From Branchiostoma floridae (Eukaryota > Chordata > Leptocardii > Amphioxiformes > Branchiostomatidae), in contig NC_049979.1 of NCBI RefSeq assembly GCF_000003815.2, forward strand, positions 11,006,471-11,070,470: a stretch of DNA of 64,000 bases, read 5' to 3'. The notes beneath the pieces were generated by a model, which saw only the letters and a list, made by a program, of their open reading frames with translations, was not told the DNA's origin and searched no databases. Position numbers and translations under genes: made by a program. Numbering within the stretch: position 1 is the stretch's first letter; each line of letters opens with the position of its first letter. Shown here piece after piece: positions 32,162 to 64,000 of the stretch.

Positions 32162-35100
32162 ATGTCCGCCGCCACAGGGCCCGTGACCGATAAGATAGAT
32201 CCGTTCAGCAAGAAACAGTCAGTCAAGAAGCCAAAACAGAAGCGATCCCAGGCCTCCTCACGGTATAAGGCGAAGGGAGGGACGGAGCTGGTGCCTTTAC
32301 CACAACTCAAAGGTAATGTTCACCAACAATCAGTATTCTCAGTACGTAGCTACTCTGAAAAAGCGTTCCATGTTTTTTGAATGCATGAACGTTTGTGGCG
32401 TGCCTAAAAACCCAAACCGTGTTTATCCCAGAGACAATAAACACGGATTCCTGATTTAGCTGGGCCACAGTTGTGACATCTTTGATGCCACCAGCGCACT
32501 TGTCACATCCTAGCCTGCCTTATCATACTCATATCAGACCTCTGTTATCAGTGAGAGCCCCCTGTGGCCACTTTGAGGCCCATACCCGTGAGAGCCATGT
32601 TAGATGGATACACACACATCCACACATTTGACCCCTCCCACCGCCACCAAGGGTTGGTACATGACATGGACTATGCCAACCATTCCAGTCCAACCAACCT
32701 TGACGGTACATACACTTGTCACACGAACTTGACTTTGGCATCAAGTGAGTGCACCCCCTCTTCCAGTAGATTTTTGTGCGTACCATTTGTGTGATAATGT
32801 TGTCAACATCTTCCATATTTGTTGAGCCTTATGGTGCTATCCTTGACCCAGTGGACATGGTTTGACACACCACAACAGGTCAGCCTGATGAGGATATGAC
32901 TGAATGTTGCTTAGTTCTCCTTTACCTTCAAGTTCAAGCTGTCATGTGAGGAGGATAAGTCTATCGCTACTCCTGTGTATGTAGACAGTATCATCCATGT
33001 TACCTGATTTTTCCATGTCTGTGCCTGTCAAATTCTTATCCTACATCCCTTGCCTCCAGCTATTTGCAACGCAATGCCATTGTCCACAAAAAAATAATTT
33101 CCATACATTTCTGACTAGGTTGCATATTTCTGCAAAGATCTTGTTCAGTGTACAGAAAGACCTTTAGTAGTTTAAAACAGTTGCACAGACATATATGTAA
33201 TAATGACATGCACATGTACATAGTAGTAATTATCTCATACCTGGAAATACACACACGAATTGTAGAGACTGCCTTATAAGGTGATTTACATAAGAGCTTC
33301 CTTGTAGAATTGTGTTCTGCTAGCTATGTGCTTGGGATCAAAGAGGACCTGGTTAGGATTTCAGTAGGCTTGGACTGTAGCAGTTTGCAATGAAGGCTTT
33401 AAAACCAACTGACCATCTGGGTAGTTTTCTTTCCTATTTGATTCCAGTATGTTTTTTAAACCGAATCATTGGAAGAGTTGTAGTTGTTACACATAAAGCT
33501 ATAGATGAACTTGTATGTTGTGTCTGTGCCCTTGATGTGATCAGCACACATTATGATTTGTTTCGGTGGTAGAGGAGTTTTGCATAAGTGATGTCCAATG
33601 CTGCTGCCACATTGGCCTGCTACATGAAAATCCTTTTACCCAAGGGAGTGGTATGCCATTAACATTGTTCAGTATTGAGCTGGCTTAGATGTGTAAGTAT
33701 GGAGATAATTGAAAAGCTGTAGAATTTGTGTGATATTTTTGTGTGGTTAACTTAGTAAAGTCTTTTGGTTCTTGGGGCGCAAAAATTTACAGCGGATATG
33801 ATACACGTTTTCTGTACCACCTACTATTTGCATGTATGATATTATTAAACGTGCATTGTAGGTTGTACATAAAAAGCTGAGCTATAGAGTTGCTTTGTGT
33901 AAAAAGAAGATGAAAGATAAGGCACGAAAAACCCCCAACTGCAAATGGAGAGTACACCATGAATGAAGAATGTCAGTCAGTTGATCTGTCAACTGGTAAA
34001 GATAAGCCATGGGTGGTAACAATAAATACATGTTTCACAAACACGCCATTTTAATGACAAGACCCTATCAACATTCCTCTTGAACAATTTCTAATTAATC
34101 CAGAACAATCCATAATCCTTTTAAGTTGTATCACTGTGTATCCAATTGTTGTGATATTCAAACATACACATGCACATAAAACAGGTAGGTAAATAGATAT
34201 GCATATTCATGGCCTGATCTAATATTTTTGCACAGCTAATATCAGAAGATTGTGGCTCTGTCAATCTTACAATAAGTTACATGGGGCACTTTGTGGATTA
34301 CAGTGTCAATAGAAGATGGATAGATGGAATAATAACACAGTCTGCTGTGGGTTTTACAGTTGATTCTTAATTTATGTCCTCATGAAATGGACAAAGTAGA
34401 AACTTGTTAATTCTGCATGGGCAGCTTTGTGTAAATATCTCTAGTTTGTGTATGCATGTCATTTGTGAATGGAGTGTGGATGTGATGAGTTTTTGTCAGT
34501 CAGTGGAAGCAGACAGCATGTACACATGTCTTATCAGATATTGCATGTTCATCAATCAAAAGAAGTATGATTTCTTGCTAATGCATGATTGATCCAGTTG
34601 TGTAATGAGCACTATTACTAGAGAAGTGCTGGATTGAATAGTCTTGCAGTTGTCCACATCTTTTATTAATATCCTAGATTTTGCTGGAGACTTCTGTAAT
34701 TTGTTGTCTTTGGGAAGGTTGAAAAAAAAAATCCATGCATGCAAAGATCTGATAGTTGCTAAGTACACATACCAAACACAGCATAGATGACTATGGAACA
34801 ACAATGTGAATTCCTCCATCAGTCAGCAATGTAAATGCCCAGTAACATCAGTTTACTCTTTATGTCAAGCATCCTTTGAAAATAGGCTTTTCCAACACTA
34901 TGTGTATGTGCATAAAAAAGGTGATAATTATCAACAGAAATTGTTGGGTAAAATTTGGATACTCATAGTCATAGACTCCCGAAATAACATATCATCAGGA
35001 TGAAAATATATGAAGTATATATATACAGGTTGGGTCCTGTTGGTTTTATGGCTCCCAGTCCACAGGGATGACTATTTTTAGTCTAGACCAGGCAGCCTTT

Positions 35101-63200: not shown

Positions 63201-64000
63201 ACGGCCAATCATGTTCTCATCAGTAATGTGTTCTCCTGTTCAGATAGATTAATTTGGTTTGTTGTCTCCCACAAGGTAGTGTGCATGTACTGCACACACA
63301 ATCAAATAGAATGCAGTAACTGTATTATCTGAACAATTTGTGGTAGAACTGATATCAGCCATTGTATCAGAATTGCAGTCCAGTATACATGTAAACAGCC
63401 AAGAAACTGGCTTGCACACTTCCAATCTCTCCAGTTCACATACATGTCTGACCAACAGGATGTCCCTGTAGCTCAACTGGTAGCAGCCTTAAAGATGAGC
63501 TCCTGCTTCCAATTTGTCGAAAACTGGGACTCTCTGGTCCAATCCTGGGTAGGACTGAGCCCTGGTTCGGGCTGGGTTTGTCTTTTGAATAGGATGTAAA
63601 ATGTGGGCCCGATGTTCGAGGAGGTGCCTCAAGCTTGTTAAGGGGAAGGGCTAGAAACCCATCCTGGTGAAAATACACTTATAGATACCCAATATAATCA
63701 ACATATACATATATACATATAATCTTCATATACATGTGCCAATGGACTAGCTTTTCTGTTGTATACATATATGGTGGCCCTGTGTGATCCAAGGGCTATA
63801 GAAACAGAGATCCTCTCTACCGAAAGCTGTTGGAAAGATTGTAAGTAATTAATAACATGGCTTATCATCATCTTATCACACAGGTTGCAGAGAGAGCGCT
63901 GTACTTCTGGAACAATGAGTACGTGATGAGTTTAATCGAGGAAAACTCCAACGTCATCATGCCCATCATGTTCCCCAACCTTTATCGCATCTCCAAGGAG
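54267..64000 (+). CDS. PPP2R5E-like: PP2A regulatory subunit B56, tandem copy 2 (partial, exons 2-10)
   Basis: Exons: 54267-54463, 55684-55785, 56446-56538, 57192-57322, 57686-57745, 60509-60617, 62583-62687, 62926-63045, and 63884 to the window end. Each has the same length and phase as its counterpart in copy 1. The protein is closer to human PPP2R5E than copy 1 is, for example [55 protein letters not shown] and [11 protein letters not shown]. The substrate-pocket segment ([17 protein letters not shown]) and the [16 protein letters not shown] stretch are intact. No initiator exon is visible in the 4 kb between copy 1 and exon 2. Exon 2 starts with two bases that complete a codon, so it can accept the exon 1 donor at 32312. 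The C-terminal exons lie beyond the window. I see no frame lesion, so this is a functional paralogue or an alternative gene body rather than a pseudogene. Confidence 0.94.
56980..57136. mobile_element. Short MITE, 157 bp, TACAGT ends
   Basis: TACAGTACATGTAGAAGCC at the left pairs with the inverse of GGCTTCCACAGTAACTGTA at the right (about 15 of 19). Internal TGTGCAATTA and TGCAATTAAC words are repeated. It lies in the intron before exon 5 of B56 copy 2. Confidence 0.65.
60258..60376. mobile_element. Short foldback repeat
   Basis: CCAAGCAGATCCTTGGTAG near the left end is mirrored by CCACCAATGATCTGCTTGG at the right. It lies in the intron before exon 7 of B56 copy 2. Confidence 0.6.
61375..61510. 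mobile_element. TACAGTNAAACCTG-family MITE fragment, copy d
   Basis: GACAGGATTCTTAATGCTTA and AAATTATCTTAAGGGACCAC match copy a and the reverse complement of copy b. The right end is TACAGATTTGACTGTA. Confidence 0.65.
61568..62091. mobile_element. TTAA-flanked MITE, 524 bp
   Basis: TTAA directly precedes (61564-61567) and follows (62092-62095) an element whose ends are inverted. The left is AGGGGCATTTCACTCC and the right reads inward AGGGGCATTCTACTCC; the similarity continues through GGGAG and TTTTCC. TTAA targeting with an AGGGG start fits Kolobok or piggyBac relatives. No transposase. It lies between exons 7 and 8 of B56 copy 2. Confidence 0.9.
63461..63815 (+). mobile_element. tRNA-derived SINE
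   Basis: TAGCTCAACTGG at 63469-63480 fits the Pol III A box (TRGYNNARNNGG). GGTCCAATCC at 63536-63545 approximates the B box at tRNA-like spacing. A body with AGGATGTAAAATGTGGG, an AAGGGGAAGGG block and a GCTATAGAAACAG tail is shared with the fragment at 16185-16345; an AT-rich stretch interrupts the tail here. It lies between exons 9 and 10 of B56 copy 2. Confidence 0.7.

Follow-up and report, generated by a model that had tools for sequence, protein, structure and literature searches.

Known systems and the locus under study

Exon-restricted conversion between paralogues has been described for the GOT1Sd/GOT1Sr pair of the copepod Tigriopus californicus, whose authors suggest that intron divergence brings conversion to an end (PMC3728101). 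An opinion article takes up a related theme with the hypothesis that intron divergence limits recombination and thereby stabilises duplicates; its relevant passages contain no test case (PMC9220161). Here we analyse a pair of B56 (PPP2R5) genes, termed copy 1 and copy 2, which lie head-to-tail on the + strand of a stretch of 64,000 nucleotides (nt) assigned to Branchiostoma floridae (contig NC_049979.1, positions 11,006,471 to 11,070,470; hereafter the window, whose numbering is used throughout). The two copies differ far less at synonymous sites in exons 7–10 than in exons 2–6, and the change occurs abruptly at the junction of exons 6 and 7. We consider it probable that an old tandem duplication was followed by short tracts of ectopic gene conversion in exons 7–10, presumably running from copy 2 into copy 1.

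As in copepod GOT1, coding exons appear homogenised while the intervening intron sequence is largely unalignable. Unlike GOT1, for which several populations and GENECONV tracts were available (PMC3728101), our pair comes from one genome and shows the pattern in four small exons in succession, with introns that lack clear homology and a 5' half that seems to have remained unconverted. The primate ADH1 genes likewise show mosaic similarity by exon and intron (PMC3409193), but the ADH1 introns are alignable and contain tracts, whereas those of the B56 pair are not alignable. The recombination barrier envisaged in PMC9220161 would leave just the pattern seen here, i.e. unrelated introns and conversion only in exons.

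According to Sommer et al. (2015), B. floridae possesses five B56 genes, three of them of the alpha/beta/epsilon type (PMC4463637). Gene models in that article stand at 84.4% and 77.3% identity to human B56 epsilon, against 84.9% and 75.7% for copies 2 and 1, respectively, and from the similarity of these percentages our guess is that they represent the genes of the window. The word "tandem" is absent from the main text of the article, and the sections covered report neither tandem order, nor per-exon synonymous divergence (dS), nor conversion. Literature searches on PPP2R5/B56, Branchiostoma and gene conversion gave no description of this pair among the matches listed.

Synonymous divergence changes in a single step

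Our comparison comprised 343 codons, with one gap placed per copy in exon 2; exclusion of 47 codons with differing residues and of 7 Met/Trp codons left 289 degenerate codons that specify the same residue in both copies. Differences are found in 82 of them, distributed as 68/153 in exons 2–6 and 14/136 in exons 7–10 (Fisher's exact test, P 5.4e-11). Expressed per exon, the differing fraction of synonymous sites is 0.61, 0.64, 0.79, 0.59 and 0.59 in exons 2 to 6, and 0.14, 0.17, 0.21 and 0.13 in exons 7 to 10. The best change point falls after codon 189 (support 187–193; likelihood ratio 47.3, 0/20000 permutations), which is the junction between exon 6 (46550..46609 in copy 1 and 57686..57745 in copy 2), the last of the strongly diverged exons before the step, and exon 7 (46790..46898 and 60509..60617). 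No significant synonymous trend was detected within either half (p 0.47 and 0.57), nor did either half contain a further significant change point. Fourfold degenerate sites show the same contrast (27/53 differing in exons 2–6 vs 6/52 in exons 7–10, p 1.7e-5). A maximum-likelihood codon model estimates dS as 1.41 in exons 2–6 and 0.22 in exons 7–10, about a 6-fold change, and splitting the model at the step increases twice the log-likelihood by 65.6 for 3 extra parameters. A mosaic of synonymous divergence with a sharp boundary, which serves as a criterion for interlocus conversion, is thus present at exon 6/7.

Codon bias was rejected as the source of the low dS, as the identity expected at saturation is ~45% in both halves. 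The GC content of third codon positions is only slightly higher in exons 7–10 (0.69–0.71 vs 0.61–0.65 in exons 2–6), where 122/136 codons are identical and about 62 are expected to be so from codon usage. A second step inside exons 2–6 was also considered and dismissed: the maximum-likelihood dS is 0.87 in exons 5–6 and 1.96 in exons 2–4, but the underlying codon counts (24/61 vs 44/92 differing) give p 0.32.

A preliminary description of this DNA had reported a steep divergence gradient from 5' to 3'. Synonymous divergence does fall in that direction, but in a single step and not as a gradient, so the earlier observation stands and is more sharply defined than in its first description. The accompanying claim that a single duplication age cannot explain the pair is supported, unless the synonymous sites of exons 7–10 are strongly constrained; and of the two explanations then offered, homogenisation of the 3' half is supported by the dS step for exons 7–10. 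At the mutation rate of 5.89e-9 per generation reported for B. floridae (PMC12862219), a dS of 0.22 would translate into some 19 million generations, provided that the DNA does come from this species.

Introns and exon borders

A sensitive blastn comparison of positions 30001–51200 with positions 51201–64000 yielded nine matches, with each of exons 2–10 accounting for one. The match of exon 8 (48084..48188 in copy 1 and 62583..62687 in copy 2; 4/105 nt differ) extends 79 nt into intron 8, while the others reach no more than 26 nt past the exon in copy 1. The 79-nt segment (48189..48267 and 62688..62766) is the sole clear intronic homology: it aligns without gaps at 67/79 identical positions, its divergence (12/79) is close to that of the synonymous sites of exons 7–10, and similarity beyond it is not significant (p 0.13). 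In 16 tests of intron flanks the intron 8 donor is set clearly apart (0/300 shuffles); weak similarity, uncorrected, was seen at the intron 7 acceptor (p 0.03), the intron 7 donor (p 0.07) and the intron 9 acceptor (p 0.057), and the remaining flanks are at the level of shuffled sequences. Compared over their full length, the introns, with the exception of intron 8, do not exceed the top score among 40 shuffles (copy 1 intron 2 and copy 2 intron 6 were cut to 2500 nt for this purpose). The earlier statement that most introns share no visible homology therefore needs amendment only for the first 79 nt of intron 8. The possibility that this segment is a dispersed repeat was rejected: apart from its partner, only a 23-nt match with an expectation value (E) of 0.18 was found in the window.

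Past the splice consensus, agreement between the copies falls to 5–9 of 20 nt at six of the seven borders visible for exons 7–10, against 19/20 on the donor side of exon 8. In other words, reduced divergence reaches the non-coding flank at one visible border (the intron 8 donor) and not at the other six; the chance of a match of 9/20 or less in a flank diverged by 15% is 4e-5. Because a recent block event over exons and introns would leave alignable flanks, the homogenised units look like single exons.

These borders bear directly on the idea of one recent large event (a partial duplication, unequal exchange or long conversion) that reached from exon 7 to the 3' end and was followed by divergence or replacement of the introns. 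Such an event would fit the like synonymous divergence of the four exons, which is statistically homogeneous (p 0.76), as well as the 79-nt stretch of intron 8 and the weak uncorrected similarities at both ends of intron 7 and at the intron 9 acceptor. It would, however, need a breakpoint at each of the six borders where similarity drops to random level past the splice site of exons that are 93–96% identical, and introns 7 and 9 taken whole score no higher than shuffles. It is already disfavoured, and we regard it as very unlikely.

An event templated by RNA would spare the introns. Reverse transcripts are typically 5'-truncated, and homogenisation of exons 7–12 of one copy by such a transcript of the other, all at once, would produce a contiguous block of 3' exons with similar synonymous divergence between untouched introns. 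The homogenised 79 nt of intron 8 would then call for an unusual transcript, the introns have not been lost, and a literature search with one phrase, "cDNA-mediated gene conversion" (cDNA, complementary DNA), gave no paper; we hold this explanation to be extremely improbable. A variant in which one cDNA-templated event rewrote exons 7 onward, with the 79 nt carried along through an alternatively spliced exon 8, is highly improbable; if true, it would mean RNA-templated concerted evolution in an animal.

Finally, the introns bear on the possibility that copy 2 is an assembly or haplotype duplicate. We rejected it: given the near-saturated synonymous sites of exons 2–6 and the unrelated introns, an assembly duplicate is very unlikely.

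Fine pattern inside exons 7–10

Identity between the copies is 93–96% at the nucleotide level in exons 7–10, with differences spread unevenly within individual exons. In exon 7 there is 1 difference in nt 1–91 and 6 in nt 92–103, and identity drops sharply in the last 18 nt; exon 8 contains none over its last 48 nt; exon 9 (48726..48845 and 62926..63045) differs at 8/120 positions; and exon 10 (49259..49386 in copy 1; 63884..64000 in copy 2, where the window edge leaves 117 nt) has 1 difference in nt 1–75 and 7 in nt 76–117. A scan over exons 7–10 assigns the exon 7 cluster (6/7 differences in nt 92–103) p 0.0034, for a 12-nt window chosen post hoc.

The main rival to conversion would be strong selection on the synonymous sites of exons 7–10 (for instance an element of the messenger RNA (mRNA), a splicing code or an overlapping signal), which would have frozen the codons since the old duplication. 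Constraint at the mRNA level would end at splice borders, as low divergence does at 6 of the 7 visible ones, and the ratio of nonsynonymous divergence (dN) to dS is relatively high in exons 7–10. The same selection would, however, have to hold the 79 nt of intron 8, which are 15% diverged and whose border with exon 8 folds no better than shuffled RNA (z 0.70 and 1.05). Neither the position of the step on an exon junction nor the abrupt loss of identity in the last 18 nt of exon 7 is in its favour, and protein differences in exons 7–10 are also below the prediction from three comparator pairs described below. We consider constraint of this kind unlikely.

Protein divergence and the faster copy

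Amino-acid differences amount to 21/64 in exon 2 (38075..38271 in copy 1 and 54267..54463 in copy 2; plus one gapped residue per copy), 7/34 in exon 3 (44670..44771 and 55684..55785) and 7/31 in exon 4 (45352..45444 and 56446..56538), followed by 2/44 in exon 5 (46302..46432 and 57192..57322) and by 1/20, 3/36, 0/35, 2/40 and 4/39 in exons 6 to 10. These counts agree with the preliminary ones, save that exon 2 is slightly lower than the about 25/65 given there and that the residue totals of exons 5 and 6 are off by one, junction codons having been assigned otherwise; the count for exon 10 is new. Protein change decreases from 35/130 in exons 2–4 to 3/64 in exons 5–6 for the copy pair; since B56 epsilon and alpha show the same drop (38/130 and 2/64), it is not special to this pair. 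It looks like a constraint common to the family, as far as these sequences tell, and needs neither homogenisation nor a fast copy 1. The gradient described earlier is therefore a composite of two profiles, one of constraint, with a dN break at exon 4/5, and the synonymous step, with a dS break at exon 6/7.

When replacements unique to one copy in exons 2–6 are polarised by epsilon and alpha, 19 fall in copy 1 and 1 in copy 2 (p 4e-5); if all four reference isoforms are required to agree, 12/13 are in copy 1. Rapid evolution of the 5' half of copy 1, the other explanation originally offered, is thus seen in exons 2–6. Could selection alone, with one duplication age, a relaxed or positively selected 5' half of copy 1 and a constrained core, account for the whole pattern? 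The 19 to 1 asymmetry speaks for it, as does the fact that epsilon and alpha too are most different in exons 2–4. Yet dS changes about 6-fold, which protein-level selection does not yield, and exons 5–6, equally constrained as protein, differ at 24/61 codons as opposed to 14/136 in exons 7–10 (p 7e-6). The preliminary description had reasoned that uniform synonymous divergence across exons would point to selection alone; the values found are far from uniform and, by that reasoning, refute selection as the sole cause, so that we find this explanation scarcely credible.

The share of amino-acid differences that falls in exons 7–10 is 9/47 for the copies and 63/173 for the comparator pairs epsilon–alpha, copy 2–epsilon and copy 2–alpha, which are not mutually independent (p 0.015, binomial; 0.035, Fisher).

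A model of exon-wise gene conversion

Returning to ectopic gene conversion, what we observe is the synonymous step and its position, the intron pattern, and the faster replacement in exons 2–6 of copy 1; what we infer is that conversion was responsible, that more than one tract was involved, and that copy 2 was the source. According to this model, an old tandem duplication would have produced two B56 genes of the alpha/beta/epsilon type, whose introns and synonymous sites then diverged to near saturation. Later, ectopic conversion tracts of about 75–190 base pairs (bp) would have copied exons 7–10 across the genes, with the slow copy 2 as the probable donor and copy 1 as the recipient. The tracts would end at exon borders, halted by unrelated intron sequence, i.e. 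they would be confined to exons because homology survived only there; the one exception would be the exon 8 tract, which continued past the border for ~79 nt of intron 8. As a separate matter, replacements accumulated faster in copy 1 over exons 2–6, mostly in exons 2–4, while purifying selection would have kept exons 5–6 conserved in both copies. The acceleration of copy 1 seems to be absent from the homogenised block, as would be expected if copy 2 had overwritten it there; this is suggestive as to direction, though the acceleration may have been limited to the 5' half in any case. Non-crossover tracts in B. floridae are predominantly <200 bp (PMC12500494); this is the scale seen here, and hence fits conversion by short tracts. 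B. lanceolatum is reported to have a greater abundance of tandem duplicates than vertebrates do (PMC9673378).

Several observations weigh against conversion or against its details. The comparison is between two nucleotide copies of one genome, which leaves room for synonymous constraint on the mRNA. Ectopic recombination would hardly be efficient over tracts as short as ~100 bp, in islands that had already diverged and that unrelated introns keep apart. Exons 2–6 are not fully saturated (85/153 codons identical vs 70 expected), and the copies agree in them without interruption over 23 nt (exons 3/4) and over 32 nt (exon 5). The dN/dS ratio is 0.13 in exons 7–10 and thus higher than the 0.025 of exons 5–6, which conversion alone does not predict, and the shortfall of protein differences in exons 7–10 is partly confounded by the faster 5' half of copy 1. 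As to the number of tracts, clustering of differences over exons 7–10 measured by gap variance is not significant (p 0.28), nor is a second change point within these exons (p 0.14); their homogeneous synonymous divergence is more like one event than several, and makes one and several events indistinguishable by age. As to direction, copy 1 has 4 unique changes in exons 7–10 and copy 2 has 1 (p 0.38), and with all four references agreeing the count is 1 vs 1. We also searched viral_contigs and genome_contigs with the 151-residue piece encoded by exons 7–10; the 8 and 72 pattern matches obtained, respectively, include no relative.

If the model is right, the pair offers a clean natural example of introns serving as firebreaks, with the 3' core exons of two genes for signalling subunits kept alike by conversion and the 5' exons of one copy able to change freely. 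For such paralogues, whole-gene trees and dS-based ages mislead, as the same pair gives dS ~1.4 in exons 2–6 and ~0.2 in exons 7–10. On this reading the pair illustrates a known process well, and is a result for specialists rather than a new kind of system.

Family identity

The PF01603 domain covers the core of both proteins (E 2.9e-180 for copy 1 and 5.7e-169 for the partial copy 2). Over the aligned stretches copy 2 is 84.9, 83.2, 76.2 and 78.8% identical to the epsilon, alpha, delta and gamma isoforms, and copy 1 is 75.7, 73.9, 66.4 and 69.7% identical to them, respectively. Both copies lack the 3-residue insertion of gamma and delta (SSNPTGAEFDP). On the basis of sequence identity and the missing insertion we classify both as B56 proteins of the alpha/beta/epsilon type, beta being absent among the references. 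In a search of the Protein Data Bank with copy 1 alone, chains of B56 epsilon come closest, followed by alpha and after it by delta and gamma, all of which we take to be human. Mutations in human B56 gamma have identified H187, R197, K240 and H243 as residues of the pocket that binds BubR1 and LxxIxE motifs (PMC4930772). At all four aligned positions these residues are found in copy 1 and copy 2 alike, the equivalents of H187 and R197 being encoded by exon 5 and those of K240 and H243 by exon 7.

Gene structures and neighbourhood

Copy 1 consists of 12 exons between 32162 and 50262, forms an open frame of 495 residues, and has AG...GT at all introns. Exon 1 (32162..32312) contains the start codon and encodes a basic N-terminus (KPKQKRSQ...) that aligns with the N-terminus of epsilon; exon 11 lies at 49628..49729, and exon 12 (50073..50262) ends with the stop codon TAG. 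Copy 2 is visible from exon 2 to exon 10 (54267–64000), the latter being 128 nt long in copy 1. Exons 2–9 have equal lengths and phases in the two copies, as had been claimed, and AG/GT occurs at the mapped intron borders. A tblastn search with the full protein found no third B56 copy in the window, matches outside the two genes having E 1.5 or worse.

Upstream of copy 2 exon 2 no exon 1 was recognised: nothing similar to copy 1 exon 1 was found, and the only right-phase candidate running from an ATG to a donor (at least 7/9 consensus letters) in 50263–54200 has no evident B56 likeness. Exon 1 of copy 1 is phase-compatible with exon 2 of copy 2, and transcripts of copy 2 might be spliced from that exon or from an unrelated first exon. 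The only AATAAA/ATTAAA signals on the + strand between the genes are ATTAAA at 51495, 52902 and 53803. In copy 1, the frame of exon 2 continues open upstream of the acceptor and reaches an ATG in the same frame at 37921 (37921–38074), which could mark an alternative first exon with a different N-terminus or occur by chance.

Runs of N at 35350–35904 (555 bases, copy 1 intron 1) and 42469–42776 (308 bases, intron 2) are assembly gaps, and the long open reading frames listed over them are consequently meaningless. Between the genes, two repeated segments (51508–51894 and 52187–52836) resemble one another in more than one frame and are probably a mobile or simple repeat. An open reading frame on the − strand (17145–17471), with no Pfam match at E 0.001, presumably resembles a stretch of NEMF. 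Two further gene pieces were identified upstream of copy 1, one coding for a DUF4796 protein (24087–24767, + strand, E 4.8e-47) and the other for an emp24/gp25L/p24 (GOLD) protein (28098–28496, − strand, E 4.5e-17).

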